The notes below the pieces were generated by a model. It was not told the origin of the DNA, ran no database searches, and saw nothing but the letters and a program-made list of their open reading frames with translations. Positions 41,537 to 60,307 of a stretch of DNA of 64,000 nt are shown in pieces; position 1 is the stretch's first letter; the number at the start of each line of letters is the position of its first letter. The stretch spans positions 62,001-126,000 of the forward strand of contig CAMDMA010000005.1 in the NCBI GenBank assembly GCA_945902075.1, in the 5' to 3' direction. A program made the position numbers and the translations under genes. The stretch is from Candidatus Kuenenia stuttgartensis (GTDB taxonomy: Bacteria; Planctomycetota; Phycisphaerae; Phycisphaerales; SM1A02).

Positions 41537-41620
41537 GCGGGCGTGGCGAAATTGGCAGACGCGCGGGATTTAGGTTCCCGTGGGGTAAAACTCGTGCAGG
41601 TTCAAGTCCTGTCGCCCGCA
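41537..41620 (+). tRNA. tRNA-Leu (anticodon UAG)
   Basis: Acceptor arms GCGGGCG (41537-41543) and CGCCCGC (41613-41619) pair perfectly. The anticodon stem CGGGA/TCCCG holds the loop TTTAGGT, giving anticodon TAG, which reads CUA leucine codons. A long variable arm (TGGGGTAAAACTCGT region) is as expected for tRNA-Leu, and the T arm is GCAGG-TTCAAGT-CCTGT. The discriminator is A and CCA is not encoded. Confidence 0.96.
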
Positions 41621-53585: not shown

Positions 53586-54470
53586 ATGCCCCACACCAAT
53601 CCCGGTTCCCGTTTACGAGAGTTGATGTCGAGCGGAACTGTGCTTGTTCCTGGCGCGTTCAACGCACTTGTCGCGCGGGCAGTCGCGCGCGCTGGCTTCG
53701 AGGCGACGTACATCTCAGGTGGTGCGACGGCGAATGTTGCAGGCTACCCCGATATCGGGTTGGTCACGCTGACGGAAATGTGTCGCACCATTCGCGAGAT
53801 TTCTGATGCCGCAGAAGTTCCGGTCATCGCTGATGCTGACACGGGGTTCGGCGAGATTGAGTGCTGTGTCCGCACGGTCGTCGAGTATGGGCGCGCCGGG
53901 GCGGCAGCGCTGCATCTCGAGGATCAAGTTTTTCCAAAGCGTTGCGGTCACCTCGATGGGAAGGATCTCGTTGCGGCGCAGGTGATGGCGGAAAAAGTTG
54001 CCGCGATGGCGAAGCACCGTGTTTCCCCAGACTTTGTCCTCATCGCGCGCACCGATGCGCGCCATGTGACGAGTTTCGAGGACATGGTCGCGCGGGCAAA
54101 CTTGTATCGCGAGGCTGGCGCAGACGTGATTTTTCCAGAGGGGCTTCATAACGCCGATGAATTTGCGCGCTTCATGCGCGCGTCGCCCGGCGCAACACTC
54201 GCAAACATGACTGAGTTCGGGAAGACGCAACACATCACCGCGGATGAGTACCGCGCTCTCGGCGTTGCGATTGTGATCTATCCGCTCTCACTCATGAGGC
54301 TGGCGATGAAGGCCGTCGAAGACGGACTTGCCACACTCAAGGCGGACGGAGGATTCGGGCACGCGCTCGACCGCATGCAGTCGCGCAAGGATCTCTATGC
54401 ATTGCTTGCGTACCGGCCCGGCGAAGAGTGGGACTTTCCGGCGAATCGACCGCCGCGCTCAGCACGGTAA
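53586..54470 (+). CDS. prpB: methylisocitrate lyase-like PEP mutase/isocitrate lyase-family enzyme
   Basis: A 294-residue TIM-barrel enzyme of the PEP mutase/isocitrate lyase superfamily. Visible are LVPGAFNALVARAVARAGF, the substrate-binding SGGATANVAGYPD, the metal-binding VIADADTGFGE, HLEDQVFPKRCGH (KRCGH corresponds to the K(K/R)CGH active-site loop of PrpB) and IARTDAR. It should split 2-methylisocitrate to pyruvate and succinate in propionate breakdown; oxaloacetate decarboxylase activity is an alternative in this family. A citrate/methylcitrate synthase lies 4.7 kb downstream, but no prpD is in view. Confidence 0.85.
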   Translation: MPHTNPGSRLRELMSSGTVLVPGAFNALVARAVARAGFEATYISGGATANVAGYPDIGLVTLTEMCRTIREISDAAEVPVIADADTGFGEIECCVRTVVEYGRAGAAALHLEDQVFPKRCGHLDGKDLVAAQVMAEKVAAMAKHRVSPDFVLIARTDARHVTSFEDMVARANLYREAGADVIFPEGLHNADEFARFMRASPGATLANMTEFGKTQHITADEYRALGVAIVIYPLSLMRLAMKAVEDGLATLKADGGFGHALDRMQSRKDLYALLAYRPGEEWDFPANRPPRSAR

Positions 54471-54481
54471 GAGTCCTTCGC

Positions 54482-56143
54482 TCAGCGAGCGGCAATCCAT
54501 GTCAGCAGACCAACCGACGCGGCGAACGCCAACAGTGCGACAAGAAGTACCGCAGCTGCGGCGCCGATACCGCGTTGCTCAGCCGCTGGTGGCAGAGCGG
54601 GAAGCGGTCGAAGCGAACCTGTGGCGTAGGCGCCAGTCCACCAGTTCATCACGCGAATGGATGGGCGCTCGCGCAATCGAGCGTCCGGCGGTGCTGGAGG
54701 AGCGGGCGGCGCGAGCGAAAGCGTGACGCGGCGGTCGGAGCGAGCCTGCTCATGGGCTTGCGTGGCTTCCGATCCACGTGGGCCGGAGCCATCGTCGCGC
54801 ACAGTTGCGGCGTCGATCATGTCCGCATTGGTTACGTGAGAATCGGTCTCTTTGCCGCGCATCGAAGGAAGATCGGCCGGACGCACCGCCGATGCATCGC
54901 CGCCAAGAATCGCGTGATCGAGGTCGCGCAGCATTTCCTCCGCAGTGACGTAGCGTTGATCAAACTCCGCCATCGCTCGTCGCGCAATCCATCTCAGCGA
55001 CTCTGGGCTTTGCTTTCGAAAGCGACTCAGCACTCCGTGCGGCGGAAATGTGCCCTCGAGGACGAAGTAGAGCACCGCGCCAGCACCGTAGAGATCAAAG
55101 CGCGCGGCATCGACGTCAGAGACGCGGGTTCCCCGTATCGCTTGTCGCACCATCTCCGGGTCTCGAAAATACTCGGTTCCATGTGTCGTGAGTGTCATCT
55201 GCGATGCGAGCGGAGTGACGAGTCCTAGGTCGACGAGCGTTGCGCGACCTTCGTGCACAATTGTGTTTTCTGGCTTGATGTCCTTATGGAGTAAGCCCGC
55301 CGCGTGCCAATCACGGAGAGTCGCGACCATGTCTCGTACGAACGCGGCCGCGAGCGCGATCTGTGTGCGGTCGAGCGGCGCGTCACCTGCAGCCTCGTGC
55401 AGCCGTCGGGTGAACTTGCCAAGGTCGATACCCTCGATGTAGCGCATGACGTAGTAGAAGCGTCGCTCCGTTGCGGCGTGATCAAGTACAAGCCCGAGTT
55501 TGCGCGCTGCCTCAAGCGATCGGGACTCGCGCAGCACTTCTGCGAGATGCGTGCCTTCATCAAAGTCAAAGCACTTGATGACGACGAAACCGTCGGCCAG
55601 TTCGATGCGCCGTCGTGTGCGGTCATCGGGTTCAGCAACAAAGAGGCGCGCCCCTGAGCCGCCGCGCTGCAATTCGCGAAGTACGCGAAATCCGTCGAAG
55701 TTCACACGCGCAACCGCAGTGTGAGGTCGCTGCACGCGAGACTCTCCGAGCGCCGCGGGTAGTCGTGAACCAACATGCTGCACAACGCTCCCGAGGCCGA
55801 GAAACTCGAGCGGTCGCACGATGACCGCGGAGAAGATCGCGCGAAATGCTGCACGAAACTCGCCTCCAGCGGTCGCGAGCGCCTCGCGCGCCGATCTGCC
55901 ACGAAGGAGGCACACGCGCGCGAGCGCAACGGGTAGGAGGAGTACGGCAACCGTCATCCCTCCGACGGCGCGCACGAGGTCGCTGCCGAGGCCGCGCAGG
56001 CAGCGGGAGAGATGCGCGAGGAGTTGCCCAGTTGCGACACCAAGGCGGCTGAGCACGAGTCCCACAGCGACGACGGTTCCGACCATAGCAGCGCACGCCG
56101 CGATGACCGCGATCGAGACAAGCAGCCACTCGAGACCGATCAC
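54482..56143 (-). CDS. membrane Ser/Thr protein kinase
   Basis: A 553-residue Hanks-type kinase with unusual topology: two hydrophobic stretches at the N-terminus (LLVSIAVIAACAAMVGTVVA and VGGMTVAVLLLPVALARV), kinase domain about residues 150-400, Pro-rich linker, and a C-terminal helix (IGAAAAVLLVALLAFAASVGL). Kinase motifs are a Gly-rich loop RELQRGGSGARLFV, Lys in FVVIKCFDF, catalytic loop LHKDIKPENT (Asp288; HKD instead of HRD), metal loop VDLGLV (DLG instead of DFG) and GTEYFRDPEM. The GTG at 56143 has AGGAGG seven bases upstream and a GTGA overlap with the sigma-factor stop. It is thus translationally coupled to the sigma factor and is probably its signalling partner. Confidence 0.88.
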   Translation of the reverse strand: MIGLEWLLVSIAVIAACAAMVGTVVAVGLVLSRLGVATGQLLAHLSRCLRGLGSDLVRAVGGMTVAVLLLPVALARVCLLRGRSAREALATAGGEFRAAFRAIFSAVIVRPLEFLGLGSVVQHVGSRLPAALGESRVQRPHTAVARVNFDGFRVLRELQRGGSGARLFVAEPDDRTRRRIELADGFVVIKCFDFDEGTHLAEVLRESRSLEAARKLGLVLDHAATERRFYYVMRYIEGIDLGKFTRRLHEAAGDAPLDRTQIALAAAFVRDMVATLRDWHAAGLLHKDIKPENTIVHEGRATLVDLGLVTPLASQMTLTTHGTEYFRDPEMVRQAIRGTRVSDVDAARFDLYGAGAVLYFVLEGTFPPHGVLSRFRKQSPESLRWIARRAMAEFDQRYVTAEEMLRDLDHAILGGDASAVRPADLPSMRGKETDSHVTNADMIDAATVRDDGSGPRGSEATQAHEQARSDRRVTLSLAPPAPPAPPDARLRERPSIRVMNWWTGAYATGSLRPLPALPPAAEQRGIGAAAAVLLVALLAFAASVGLLTWIAAR

Positions 56144-56883
56144 GCGTGGCCCTCCTGCCACCGCGCGTGATCCCTCATCATCAACTCCTCTTGTTCGCGC
56201 CAGATTTCGCCGACAGCTTCGTCGAAAAGTGTGTCATCTCCAGCGAGACCTGCATCGCGCGGCTCGACCCGCTCATCGTCGGTGAAACTCCACTGTTCGA
56301 TTGCGATCGCGAGTTCATCGCGCAGCAGTTCGCGTACGCGTTGGCAATGTCGCGTCACCGTTGGCTCGCTTACCCCAACGAGAAGACCGATCTCTCGGCC
56401 ACTCTTCGAATCGAGTACACGCATCCGATAGGCCTCAAAATGCACGAACTCTGCGCGTTTTTGAGTTGCACGGATGGCGGAGTGCACCTTCGCCGCCAAA
56501 ACGCGCCGTTCATATTCTTCGTCGGGTTGTGGCTCGCGTGACGCACCCATCCAAGTCTCATCGAGACTCGTATTCCGCTTCCCAGAGCCGCGCTTTTGCG
56601 CGTTCCGCCGATCAAACTCATCGCCAAGCACATGTTTGGCAATCGAGAGCAGCCATGTCGAAAAGCGCACGCCACGCGTTGGATCGAATCGATCAATAGA
56701 CCCAGAGAGTGCCGCGAGCGTGTCTTGCGTGAGGTCACGTAGCGTCTCCTCGCCAATGCGGCCGTTTCCCCAACGGTGCAGCGTTCCGCGAACCACCGGC
56801 CCAAACGCCTCCCAAAGATCGAACCACGCCTGTTCATCCCGGGCGCGGAGTCGTCGAAGAAAGCTCGTATCTACGTGATGCAT
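56140..56883 (-). CDS. ECF-type RNA polymerase sigma factor
   Basis: A 247-residue sigma-70-family protein. Region 2 is visible as AWFDLWEAFGPVVRGTLHRW, LRDLTQDTLAALSGSIDRFD and FSTWLLSIAKHVLGDEFDRR; region 4 is the helix-turn-helix SGREIGLLVGVSEPTVTRHC and following. A C-terminal extension of about 50 acidic residues (DDERVEPRDAGLAGDDTLFD) is longer than in simple ECF factors and may be regulatory. The ATG at 56883 is preferred over extension to 56979, which would overlap the upstream gene. Coupling to a Ser/Thr kinase instead of an anti-sigma factor is the planctomycete STK-linked ECF pattern. Confidence 0.85.
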   Translation of the reverse strand: MHHVDTSFLRRLRARDEQAWFDLWEAFGPVVRGTLHRWGNGRIGEETLRDLTQDTLAALSGSIDRFDPTRGVRFSTWLLSIAKHVLGDEFDRRNAQKRGSGKRNTSLDETWMGASREPQPDEEYERRVLAAKVHSAIRATQKRAEFVHFEAYRMRVLDSKSGREIGLLVGVSEPTVTRHCQRVRELLRDELAIAIEQWSFTDDERVEPRDAGLAGDDTLFDEAVGEIWREQEELMMRDHARWQEGHA

Positions 56884-56935
56884 GTCGGCGATCGCGGTCA
56901 AGGTCCGCGCGTTTGGGATTCGAAGTGGGAGCGTT

Positions 56936-58378
56936 TCACGGGCAAACCAGTTGGTGGTGCACGTCGGATCTTGAAGCACTCGGTTTCAGTGTCGGAGAAT
57001 CGGCTGTGTCCGTGTCGTTCTCTTCCTTCTGCTTGTCTGCCTTGCGACGGGCCTTCGGAGCCGCCGGCGCTTCCTTCGGCGAGAGCAGTTCAAACTCAAA
57101 GTCATCACCTGCTTTGCTTCGGGTCCATTTGAGTACAAGTTCCCTTGGCGCAAGTCCTCGGGTCACAATGATCGGCGGTGTGGGATGAGCCTCTTCATTG
57201 TTCCGATCCCGCGCGGTCTGCATGGAAAGTTTGGCAGGAAGGAGCTCAAAAACTGGCTTCGACTTTGCCAACTCATCCTTTGGAATCTCAAGCACGAGTT
57301 CGTCGGCGGTCATGCTTTCCGTTCGGCCGTGAACAGTGATCGCGATGGTGAATTGTCGCTCACGAAGTTTTGCAACGAGATCATCAAGGCTTTCGACGGC
57401 AATTCCGGCGACGGAGAGCGAGCGCAGGCCCTCTGCGAGATAGCCGATACGGAGCACTGCAGTGGCAAATGCGGTGGGCTGCGTCTTTCTCGCCCATTCC
57501 TTCCAACGTTGCTCAAACCCCGCAACGTCGGCGCTCCCGAATGCCTGCACGAAGGCGCGGTCGCTCGGCACACCGGCATGCAGGAGTTGGAGGTATCCCT
57601 CGAATGACTTCTGATACCGACCGCCCTCAGCCCATCCGAGAAACTGCACCATGGACCATGCCTGCGTGTACTGAATTCCCGCGCTACCTGCGCGAACATT
57701 GCCATTCCAGTCGTCGCTTGACATCGTCAACATGCGGAGGAAGTCGATCGTCGTACCTTGATGAATCGCGCGTTGAATTGCGACGACTGGCGCCGGGCTC
57801 GCTTGCCCAATGATGACCCGACCGTCGACCACGACTGCTTCGCCGAAACACTCAGCGAGTCCCTCGTTCACCCACGGCGGCAGCGTGGTCGCGAATCGGC
57901 TGAAGGCGTATTGGTGAAAGCCTTCGTGTTGGATGACGTGAAACACGCGCGTTCGCGGCAAACTCTCGACGAAGAACGCGAGCGCGGCGCCCTTCGGCGA
58001 CATGAAAAACATTCCGCCACTTCCCGTTGCATTGATGCCGTAGGTGTTGCGAAGGGTGTCGAGATAGTCGCGCTCTCGCGCAAACATCAAAACGAACGGC
58101 ACTTCAGGTGCCTGAATCGGAAGATGTGCGAGTCGCCGCGCGAACTCCGCGTAGAAAATGTCGAGGTGGCGCGCGTAAATCCTCGTGTCATCTGGGCCGA
58201 GATCACTGAGAATTCGGTAGTGCTTCGAGCGCGCTTCGTCACCCGCGCGCGTAAAGAAACTGGGCTCAGCGGTGCGCTGTCCACTCTGCGCGAGACCATC
58301 ATCGACGATGCCAACAACCGCAAAAACGGTTGAGAGAATTGTGGCGAGCGGTCGTCCGCGTCGGACGTCAAGAGGCAT
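56936..58378 (-). CDS. DUF1570-like exported peptidase (gluzincin type)
   Basis: A 480-residue protein with a signal peptide (ATILSTVFAVVGIVDDGLA). The zinc site is HEGFH (His151, Glu152, His155) followed by the Glu of WVNEGLAECFGE, a gluzincin pattern shared with DUF1570 / peptidase MA families. The N-terminal half has SKHYRILSDLGPDDTRIYAR and PFVLMFARERDYLDTL, as in DUF1570. The C-terminal 90 residues (APAAPKARRKADKQKEENDT) are charged and disordered. It precedes the sigma-factor gene by 52 bases on the same strand and may form an operon with it and the kinase. Substrate unknown. Confidence 0.78.
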   Translation of the reverse strand: MPLDVRRGRPLATILSTVFAVVGIVDDGLAQSGQRTAEPSFFTRAGDEARSKHYRILSDLGPDDTRIYARHLDIFYAEFARRLAHLPIQAPEVPFVLMFARERDYLDTLRNTYGINATGSGGMFFMSPKGAALAFFVESLPRTRVFHVIQHEGFHQYAFSRFATTLPPWVNEGLAECFGEAVVVDGRVIIGQASPAPVVAIQRAIHQGTTIDFLRMLTMSSDDWNGNVRAGSAGIQYTQAWSMVQFLGWAEGGRYQKSFEGYLQLLHAGVPSDRAFVQAFGSADVAGFEQRWKEWARKTQPTAFATAVLRIGYLAEGLRSLSVAGIAVESLDDLVAKLRERQFTIAITVHGRTESMTADELVLEIPKDELAKSKPVFELLPAKLSMQTARDRNNEEAHPTPPIIVTRGLAPRELVLKWTRSKAGDDFEFELLSPKEAPAAPKARRKADKQKEENDTDTADSPTLKPSASRSDVHHQLVCP

Positions 58379-58497
58379 CGACTCAGTCTACTTCGAGCGC
58401 TGTGGAAAGCGTCGGGATCAGAGGGTTCTCGGTCATATCGCGCGACGCCCGGGCTCGATAAGTCGCATGCAGCCCGTACAGAGTGAGAAGTCGCGAG

Positions 58498-58503
58498 TAA
58501 AAT
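58498..58503 (+). promoter_or_regulatory. putative -10 box of the structured RNA
   Basis: TAAAAT about seven to eight bases before the expected RNA start near 58510. No good -35 box was found. The 130 bases between the DUF1570 gene start and this box show nothing else I can identify. Confidence 0.4.
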
Positions 58504-58509
58504 TCAAGA

Positions 58510-58878
58510 AATTGCACGATGCCGGCAACACATTGAGGGCTTTCAATGAACAATGCTTCGAGCCGGAGAAATCCGGCCCGCGAGCGATTTAGGGACCGCT
58601 CGCGTACGCAAGTCTTCGGGTTGAGGGACCTGAAGACGGGCGGAGGTAAAAAGGGACGGCAACACGGCGCTAGACCGGGTTGCCTGTGAACGGCGGAAAG
58701 GGAACCTGCCGCTCACAAGCTCACGTTTGGGGACGCCTGAACGTGAGATTTCTCGGAGGGCCTTCGGAGGAGTCATCCTCTGAAGGATCGGGATAGAACT
58801 TCTGCGCCGGGAAGCGCTGAAGTTTGAACAAGGGAACAAGCCGCACGCCATAAGGGACGTGCGGCTTGTTGTTTTTGG
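58510..58878 (+). ncRNA. structured RNA with repeated GGGA loops, candidate CsrA-sequestering (CsrB/RsmZ-like) sRNA
   Basis: There is no credible reading frame here, but about eight hairpins follow one another and end in an intrinsic terminator. Stems seen: 58531-36/58543-48; 58562-67/58572-77 (GAAA loop); 58579-86/58597-604 (8 bp, loop with AGGGA); 58612-20/58629-37 (loop with AGGGA); 58658-63/58679-84; 58691-96/58705-11 (imperfect, loop AAAGGGAA); 58720-27/58740-47 (8 bp, loop with GGGGA); 58761-71/58776-86 (11 bp); 58797-802/58819-24 with inner GCGC pairs (loop CGGGAA); terminator 58837-47/58858-68 (loop with AGGGA). Single-stranded linkers at 58652-56 and 58831-35 are also AGGGA. Nine GGGA, six of them AGGGA, fit the CsrA consensus A(N)GGA. 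Not RNase P, tmRNA or 6S by signature. Direction + is set by the terminator. The CsrA link is inference. Confidence 0.72.
58837..58877 (+). terminator. intrinsic terminator of the structured RNA
   Basis: Perfect 11-bp stem CAAGCCGCACG (58837-58847) / CGTGCGGCTTG (58858-58868), loop CCATAAGGGA, then TTGTTTTT. Confidence 0.92.
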
Positions 58879-59074
58879 AGTTCTTTTTGGACGTTCCTCG
58901 ACGTGAGTCTCTCGCTTGAGGAGCCGCCGCGATCGATGCATCGCGTCTTGAGAGCGTGTGCGCTCGACTCGCGTCATCCATGCGTCGATCACGATTGCCT
59001 TCGGATCCACAGACCTACTCCTCTCCGCGGTGCGCGCGTGCTGGTCGTCATCCCACGGCAATCAGTGCATTGTG

Positions 59075-59080
59075 TAGACT
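59075..59080 (+). promoter_or_regulatory. putative -10 box of the citrate synthase gene
   Basis: TAGACT 66 bases before the start at 59147, the same hexamer as before the GH13 gene. It lies after the RNA terminator, so the enzyme gene probably has its own promoter. Confidence 0.4.
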
Positions 59081-59146
59081 CCAAATCCGTTCGCGGCTGC
59101 GTTTTTGCCGCGCACTTTCGGCCTCGACCTCTGTCGGAGAACCACG

Positions 59147-60307
59147 ATGAGCACCGCACCAGCGCCCACTCCCAAGCCCGTCGATACCCGCGGCCTCGCC
59201 GGGCAAACTGTCGGCGATACCGCCATCTGCGCGGTGACCCAGTCTGAGCTGATCTACCGCGGCTACGAGATTGCCGATCTTGCCGAACACGCCTCGTTTG
59301 AGGAGGTCGCGTTTCTTCTCCTTGTCGGTCACAAGCCGTCGGCCGTTGAACTGACCGCGTTCACAACCGAGGTCGCGTCCATGCGCGCGATTCCGACGAG
59401 TGTGCGCGACGCGATCATTCGTATCGCGAAGGAAAGTCCAAATGCGCACCCGATGTCGATCCTTCGCTCCGGTGTCTCGCTCCTGTCGCACCTCGATCCC
59501 GACTGCGAAGACAATTCCGCGGCAGCAGGGCTTCGCAAGTCCAAGCGGCTTCTTGCCCAAATTCCAACCATCGTCGGCGCTTGCCAGCGCACGCTCGATG
59601 GCCACGCGCCGGTCGACCCCGATTCCTCGCTCGGCCACGCTGCCAACCTGCTCTGGTCGATCACCGGTAGGAAGCCTGATCCGCTCGCGGCACGCATCAT
59701 GGATGTGTCGCTTGTGCTGTACGCAGAACACGATTTCAACGCGAGTACTTTCTCGTGCCGCACCATCGCCTCGACTGAGACCGACATGCACAGCGCGGTG
59801 TGTGGCGGTATCGGTGCGCTCAAGGGCCCGCTTCACGGCGGGGCAAACGAGATGGCGATGGAAATGCTGAAGGATGTCGATCGCGACTGTGCGGGCGGCA
59901 AGATGACGATCGACGCATGGATGCAGCGCGCCTTCGCGGAGAAGCGCAAACTCATGGGCTTTGGTCACCGCGTCTACAAGAATGGCGATCATCGCGCAGG
60001 CATTCTTCGCCGATGGGGGCTCAAACTCGCTGAGAAGCAAGGGCCTGATTCGAAGAAGTGGTTTGATATGGGTGATGAAGTCCAAGCGATCATGCTGCGC
60101 GACAAAAACATTCATCCGAACGTCGACTTCCCTTGCGGCATGACCTACTTCATCATGGGTATTCCCGTGCCGCAGTACACACCGATTTTTGTCGCGAGCC
60201 GCATCACCGGTTGGTGCGCACACATCATGGAGCAGCACGCGAACAACCGGATCATCCGTCCGCTCGCGAGTTACACCGGGCCGATGCATTTGAAGTGGAA
60301 CAGCTAA
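59147..60307 (+). CDS. citrate synthase / 2-methylcitrate synthase
   Basis: A 386-residue citrate-synthase-family enzyme. CGGAGA at 59135-59140 supports the ATG at 59147. The active-site residues are present: His in PLHGGANEMAMEML, His in GFGHRVYKNGDHRA and Asp in the expected region NVDFPCGMTYF; VASRITGWCAHIMEQHANNR is the CoA/oxaloacetate-binding end. Length and sequence style (GLAGQTVGDTAICAV, YRGYEIADLAEHASFEEVAF) are of the short type shared by gram-positive citrate synthases and PrpC 2-methylcitrate synthases. A PrpB-like gene in the window is compatible with PrpC, but the sequence does not decide. A terminator follows. Confidence 0.9.
   Translation: MSTAPAPTPKPVDTRGLAGQTVGDTAICAVTQSELIYRGYEIADLAEHASFEEVAFLLLVGHKPSAVELTAFTTEVASMRAIPTSVRDAIIRIAKESPNAHPMSILRSGVSLLSHLDPDCEDNSAAAGLRKSKRLLAQIPTIVGACQRTLDGHAPVDPDSSLGHAANLLWSITGRKPDPLAARIMDVSLVLYAEHDFNASTFSCRTIASTETDMHSAVCGGIGALKGPLHGGANEMAMEMLKDVDRDCAGGKMTIDAWMQRAFAEKRKLMGFGHRVYKNGDHRAGILRRWGLKLAEKQGPDSKKWFDMGDEVQAIMLRDKNIHPNVDFPCGMTYFIMGIPVPQYTPIFVASRITGWCAHIMEQHANNRIIRPLASYTGPMHLKWNS

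Follow-up and report, generated by a model that had tools for sequence, protein, structure and literature searches.

A GGGA-rich structured RNA near methylcitrate genes of planctomycetes as a candidate CsrA sponge

RESULTS AND DISCUSSION

The window, as the whole 64,000-nucleotide stretch of DNA analyzed here is called, contains on its plus strand, at positions 58561 to 58875, a structured, GGGA-rich RNA with homologs in all 16 genomes of genus g1, to which the source genome belongs, and with covariation among them; both of its ends are inferred. The structure, the conservation and the GGGA motifs are direct observations, as are the two CsrA genes of the source genome and their distribution. 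The best explanation, with a probability of roughly three in four, is a CsrA sponge in the form of a stand-alone small RNA (sRNA) about 315 nt long, with CsrA2 as its most likely partner; its transcription, its binding to CsrA, the sequestration and the choice of CsrA2 are inferred. According to this explanation, the hairpin loops and linkers of the RNA would display many GGA sites, mostly AGGGA, CsrA dimers would bind to the displayed sites, and the resulting drop in free CsrA would release CsrA-controlled mRNAs. The partner would be CsrA2, the second and nonflagellar paralog, with CsrA1 being left to FliW. Counting against this explanation are the small number of AGGGA in some genera, the loss of GGGA from the terminator loop in four genomes, the paired GGG of g26, the Ile of CsrA2 at position 4 and the absence of a strong match in 34 of the 45 genera of the family.

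Motif content, fold and extent of the RNA

The region from 58510 to 58878 holds nine GGGA and six AGGGA motifs, the very counts given in a preliminary description of this DNA. They lie above the means of 4.4 and 0.85 obtained in 2,000 dinucleotide shuffles, in which the observed counts were reached in 13 and 0 cases, respectively. Positions 58500 to 58885 fold at -187.5 kcal/mol, with a z score of -10.3 and none of 100 shuffles as good. The preliminary description had taken the entire region for an RNA of about 370 nt; the structured RNA is real, but the first ~50 bases are probably promoter, leaving an RNA of about 315 nt.

These first bases contain a promoter-like -35 element, GCAACA (58525 to 58530, plus strand), proposed on the basis of the congeners and of the copies in genus g40, and a promoter-like -10 element, AACAAT (58549 to 58554, plus strand), whose AAT is invariant in all 16 aligned sequences. 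A -10-like AANAAT[GC] is present in 14 of the 16 g1 congeners examined, with CAACA lying 20 to 24 nt 5' of it in eight of these 14, and GCAACA likewise occurs upstream of six of the 16 g40 RNAs. Directly upstream of the RNA of genus g26, TTGC and CATA, with starts 22 nt apart, are invariant in 12 of 12 sequences. A scan with the standard sigma-70 consensus gave no promoter match, and GCAACA is not an E. coli-type consensus.

At its other end, the RNA has a 3' module (58831 to 58876, plus strand) consisting of an AGGGA at 58831, a 13-bp intrinsic terminator and a T tract, which rests on the fold and has similar counterparts in ten other genera. The terminator with AGGGA in its loop that had been described earlier is borne out by the fold, which places the 13-bp stem at 58835 to 58870 and the loop AGGGA at 58853 to 58857. 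A consensus scan reported no terminator, but its limit is an 8-nt loop, whereas the terminator loop here has 10 nt. Four congeners (L006, L008, L013 and L015) carry GGGG instead of GGGA in this loop. With its own terminator and a promoter-like start, the sRNA is inferred to be an independent unit, in the absence of transcript data. A protein-coding reading was rejected, as the overlapping plus-strand open reading frames (ORFs) of at least 30 amino acids are 106 (ending at 58592), 47 and 38 amino acids long and the stems covary; the rejection does not cover antisense ORFs of 172 and 86 amino acids.

Conservation and covariation within genus g1

A 411-nt query matches all 15 other g1 genomes at an E value of 1e-25 or better, and its best match in 85 genomes outside g1 was only 31 bp long (E value of 0.001). 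The 16 g1 sequences were aligned over a 208-nt core corresponding to window positions 58542 to 58749, and with a 59-pair structure on this alignment 95.9% of the cells pair. Compensatory changes among relatives, which the preliminary description had named as a check on its proposal, are present: two-sided changes occur in 31 pairs and 113 cells, compared with 16.2 pairs and 33.3 cells in shuffles, none of 500 being as high, and slid controls reach at most 13 pairs and 27 cells. The structure leans towards this alignment, having been derived from it. For the tests in g1, g26 and g43, the structures were obtained with RNAalifold on the alignments themselves and edited by hand; in the g1 alignment (A1) the stem of hairpin H2 was extended and its three loop pairs were dropped, and alignments A5 and A6 were used without long-range and U-tract helices.

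GGGA is invariant in all 16 sequences at four sites, namely, the loops of hairpins H2, H3 and H5 and the linker after H3, and most stems change. On the plus strand, the series begins with H1 (58562 to 58577), which has no GGGA in its loop and shows two-sided changes in all six pairs (16 sequences). H2 (58580 to 58603) presents the loop UUAGGGA, with AGGGA at 58591 to 58595, on a stem in which five of eight pairs change on both sides. H3 (58612 to 58637), with the loop UUGAGGGA and AGGGA at 58624 to 58628, has two-sided changes in three pairs and precedes the single-stranded linker GGAGGUAAAAAGGGA (58642 to 58656), which is invariant throughout the 16 sequences. Two-sided changes affect seven of the ten pairs of H4 (58658 to 58684). 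The stem of H5 (58686 to 58716; loop AAAGGGAAC, AGGGA at 58699 to 58703) is almost invariant and hence adds no covariation evidence. In H6 (58720 to 58747), ten of 11 pairs change on both sides; its GGGGA (58729 to 58733) extends across the stem top and the loop, and the GGA at this stem-loop border is kept in 15 of the 16 sequences.

The statement that nearly all GGGA motifs lie in loops or linkers holds for most of them, but the GGGA at 58730 overlaps a stem top and is not free in the loop. In the model, 48 of 77 GGGA motifs have an unpaired GGA, compared with 29 to 31% of all triplets, and the number rises to 64 of 77 if the two weak top pairs of H3 are opened. The g1 RNAs hold four to seven AGGGA each (n = 16). 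The 3' half, from 58750 to 58830 (plus strand), contains further hairpins and the GGGA motifs at 58790 and 58809 and is present in long-form members; it varies among the g1 relatives and is absent in several short-form congeners, which end soon after H6.

Sixteen stretches from contigs of named genomes carry the 19-mer GGCGGAGGTAAAAAGGGAC; by label, nine belong to Planctomycetota, Planctomycetaceae or Phycisphaera, four are uncultured, and one each comes from Ca. Kuenenia, Limnohabitans and Deltaproteobacteria. The Limnohabitans sp. contig (L101), equal in length to a contig of the g1 member G010 (G010:C437), is probably a mislabelled metagenome-assembled genome. The Deltaproteobacteria match (L095) lies in an apparent coding frame and was taken by eye as chance.

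Relatives in other genera

A model of the core (R1), run on 181 genomes of the family, matched all 16 g1 genomes, six g40 genomes weakly and a single site in G036 (L082); the last extends over no more than 26 positions of the model, at a hairpin resembling a terminator, and was judged by eye to be a chance match. The g40 RNAs have the same design as those of g1 and share the words AAAGGGAACCT and CTCACAAGCTC with them. Since a prpB-like gene stands beside the g40 RNAs as well as in the window, stretches around prpB or prpC were collected in other genera, 40 in all from 38 genomes. Four of these (in G058 of g44, G057 of g43, G040 of g26 and G016 of g2) contain noncoding-looking, AGGGA-dense stretches; AGGGA windows in L117 and L103(+) look coding and were set aside.

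A second model (R2), covering the 63 positions of the 3' module, was built without g1, because a first alignment of the module that included g1 (A3) was out of register. With members counted at an E value of 3e-5 or better, R2 has matches in 62 of the 181 family genomes, distributed over ten genera as follows: g43, 17 of 19; g40, 16 of 16; g26, 12 of 14; g34, 6 of 8; g29, 3 of 3; g39, 3 of 3; g27, 2 of 2; g3, 1 of 1; g44, 1 of 1; and g2, 1 of 2. Together with g1, this amounts to 78 of 181 genomes and 11 of 45 genera; a strong match is absent in 34 of the 45 genera of the family, although CsrA is present in 44 of the 45. Of 301 genomes of the order, 46 reached an E value of 0.001 with R2, 44 of them family members. 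The remaining two, from two other families, have weak matches (G071:C33:2823-2881, E value of 4e-4; G078:C1:718320-718384, E value of 9e-4). L204 (G028, g14) and L205 (G171, g18), two further weak matches with eight and seven GGGA, some in hairpin loops, may be real members, though they fall below the cutoff of 3e-5.

The 62 R2 RNAs hold two to nine AGGGA each, 51 of them four or more, compared with an average of 0.26 in about 20,000 random stretches of prp regions; the count covers stretches of up to 443 nt that end at the R2 match and includes the AGGGA-bearing module. With one RNA taken per genus (11 genera, 3,811 nt, with the last 69 nt, i.e., the 3' module, omitted and g1 represented by a 245-nt core stretch), the commonest pentamer is AGGGA, with 33 occurrences against 31 for AAGGG and 28 for GGGAA, two overlapping words of which one or the other outnumbers AGGGA in several genera, including g26, g34 and g39. 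The RNAs of g34, g39 and g3 have just two or three AGGGA, and the loops seen in them are often CGGGA, as in GGTGC-GGGA-ACACC.

Conserved AGGGA islands appear in the alignments of g43 (16 of 17 RNAs) and g26 (12 RNAs), and compensatory cells exceed those of shuffled alignments in both, with 47 against 11.8 in g43 and 25 against 7.1 in g26 (0 of 500 shuffles in each). In neither genus did a measure of further pair types stand out clearly from the shuffles (81 and 110 of 500). Some GGG fall within stems of the g26 consensus, and single-sequence folds pair many AGGGA, leaving one to three of four to seven unpaired in g26.

The purine-rich words could instead make the RNA a multisite decoy for a target other than CsrA, such as another RNA-binding protein, or the ribosome, engaged through Shine-Dalgarno-like runs. 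The linker of the g1 RNAs contains an invariant GGAGGU, runs of AAAGG might base-pair with the 16S tail, and there are no binding data that exclude other targets. GGAGG reaches high frequencies in g1, g2 and g29 (7.1, 8.0 and 9.8 per kb) and is even commoner than AGGGA in g2, but it is rare in most other genera, which are enriched in AGGGA and not in AGGAG or GGAGG (13.7 per kb against 0.8 and 0.5 in g43; 8.5 against 1.2 and 0.2 in g40). Also against such a decoy, the GGAGGU linker has, as judged by eye, no start codon close behind it. GGA in a hairpin loop is, moreover, the signature described for CsrA in the part of PMC7652899 that was available, and a target other than CsrA is regarded as unlikely.

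It is quite improbable that the RNA binds CsrA mainly as a partner, for example as a base-pairing sRNA assisted or stabilized by CsrA, rather than as a sponge. Such a role has a precedent in Bacillus subtilis, where SR1 and its target are helped to pair by CsrA (PMC9029176, available in part), and some sequence beyond GGGA, such as GGCGGAGGUAAAAA, is invariant within g1. Between genera, however, most of the sequence beyond the GGGA-containing words and the terminator module differs, which ill suits a conserved base-pairing seed.

Genomic position

The RNA lies in the window between a prpB-like gene (53586 to 54470; 327.8 bits, below the curated cutoff of 354 for its family) and prpC (59147 to 60304; 423.4 bits, cutoff of 421.3), which starts 270 bp downstream of it. 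The neighboring gene, previously described as a citrate synthase gene, is indeed there and codes more exactly for a 2-methylcitrate/citrate synthase II. That this gene might be a Csr-type carbon target, as proposed earlier, is no more than a suggestion: its leader, read by eye, lacks GGGA and has a GGA where the ribosome would bind, and in other genera the RNA does not lie upstream of it.

The same order, with the RNA after prpB and before prpC on the same strand, is found in 15 of 16 g1 genomes, G014 being unreadable; of the 15, nine have both genes on the contig, two only prpC and four only prpB. This order is what a cis-acting leader of prpC, either an attenuator or a riboswitch, would produce. 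Over all 11 genera, the RNA lies within 10 kb of prpB or prpC in nine, but its orientation varies. It follows prpB in g40 (immediately after a prpB-like frame) and g26, is on the opposite strand within 5 kb in g43, g44, g2 and g39, lies on the opposite strand about 6 kb away in g27 and g3, and is found on another contig in g29 and g34; outside g1, these placements rest on one genome per genus (six in g40). The variation of place and strand between genera favours a trans-acting RNA and leaves a simple prpC leader with very little probability.

Kinase, sigma-70 and DUF1570 genes occupy the minus strand between prpB and the RNA (54482 to 58378), and a DUF1570 gene adjoins the RNA in G041 too. In other genera, no shared partner emerged from ten ORFs adjacent to the RNA (two PQQ/BamB-type, one DUF1570, one SpoIID and six without any assignment).

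Comparison with known RNAs

At gathering score, Rfam retrieved only a tRNA (41537 to 41620) in the window and nothing at ten loci of other genera. Searched with E values of up to 10, positions 58380 to 59150 gave six chance-level matches, among them RsmY with 12.5 bits against a cutoff of 57 (E value of 1.8), and the covariance models of CsrB, RsmX, RsmY and RsmZ did not reach their cutoffs in the window or at the ten other loci. A known Rfam RNA was rejected on these grounds, and the match to another family that would have counted against the original proposal is missing.

RNAs of the CsrB, CsrC and Rsm type are stand-alone and one to a few hundred nucleotides long. The planctomycete RNA is like CsrB and CsrC of Enterobacteria and RsmX, RsmY and RsmZ of Pseudomonas in being, by inference, a stand-alone RNA and in having serial hairpins, GGA in loops and linkers, a terminator and csrA in the genome; it differs from them in having no Rfam match, in the dominance of AGGGA as the form of the site and in belonging to a different phylum. 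Among the features of the CsrB/RsmZ class, it meets that of many conserved GGA in loops and linkers, more weakly in g34, g39 and g3 and with some in stems in g26, and that of a conserved secondary structure in g1, g26 and g43. The initial reading as a CsrB-like sponge thus gains support from the two csrA genes, the covariation, the lack of an Rfam match and the GGGA-rich relatives in 11 genera, without expression or binding data. The RNA most likely works like CsrB, an effect that is inferred, while being unrelated in sequence to the CsrB and RsmZ families.

CsrA sponging by RNA has so far been accepted only in gammaproteobacteria. A 2014 paper, in the part that was available, states that CsrA-sponge RNAs had until then been described from Gammaproteobacteria alone and presents TwoAYGGAY (Clostridia) and Bacillaceae-1 (Bacilli) as candidate CsrA-binding RNAs whose binding is unvalidated (PMC4333381). 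Both resemble the RNA described here as predicted CsrA-binding RNAs outside Gammaproteobacteria, but they have, as far as this portion of the paper goes, two strong motif matches each, compared with four to nine AGGGA in 51 of 62 planctomycete RNAs. No report of a CsrA-sponge-like RNA in Planctomycetes was among the matches listed in a search of the open-access literature, preprints excluded. Should binding be demonstrated, CsrA sponging would have either a far greater age than assumed or more than one origin, and what CsrA does in planctomycetes could be tested directly.

CsrA paralogs and FliW

The source genome has two CsrA genes, so the proposal does not fail for want of csrA, an absence that had been named as its possible refutation. 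CsrA1 adjoins fliW and a flagellin gene (the latter recognized by eye), and CsrA2 is located elsewhere in the genome. CsrA is present in 177 of the 181 family genomes. FliW was not found in the 22 genomes of g2, g43 and g44, and it is present in all 12 genomes tested from other genera that have the RNA. In g2, g43 and g44, 21 of the 22 genomes have exactly one CsrA match, which in each case scores like CsrA2 (typing was by score; the sequences of seven of the 21 were read, and all seven are CsrA2), and 19 of the 22 contain the RNA. Because the RNA persists along with CsrA2 in genera without a FliW or CsrA1 match, CsrA2 rather than CsrA1 is the likelier partner of the sponge, an inference made without binding data.

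The orthologs of CsrA2 at 19 loci all have MLVITRR and VHR, and the arginine of VHR is present in 19 of 19; only VHR counts as an independent test, because a permissive pattern in residues 1 to 6 had guided the choice of frames. CsrA2 matches solved chains of the CsrA family, 1y00 being the best and 2jpp among them. According to the available part of PMC7652899, residues L4 and R44 of CsrA are critical and an ANGGAN hairpin loop is a high-affinity site. The arginine of VHR in CsrA2 aligns with a residue that is called critical there, position 4 of CsrA2 is Ile rather than Leu, and AGGGA fits ANGGA. The source genome therefore encodes a CsrA with RNA-binding residues, with Ile in place of Leu4 in CsrA2.

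FliW has been suggested for Planctomycetes (PMC4682653, in the portion available). Like the proposed sponge, FliW antagonism of the Bacillus type controls CsrA, and the source genome has a fliW-csrA1 pair; unlike the sponge, FliW is a protein and tied to flagella, and three genera without a FliW match retain the RNA. In the source genome, FliW and the sponge-like RNA seem to occur side by side, each probably paired with a separate CsrA. On balance, though only slightly, the evidence favours a second, FliW-independent Csr circuit in this family, in which CsrA2 would be checked by a fast-evolving sponge RNA near the methylcitrate genes that evolved independently of CsrB and was kept even without FliW and CsrA1.

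At L032 2312-2722 and 1091-1375, csrA2 is near mraZ-like and NifU-like ORFs, both named by eye. On the minus strand of L031, the fliW and csrA1 leaders form the hairpins CCGGCA-TGGA-TGCCGG and GGGCA-CGGA-TGCCC, whose loops display ANGGA a short distance ahead of the start codons, a placement that, judged from the sequence, suggests that CsrA may control its own flagellar operon.
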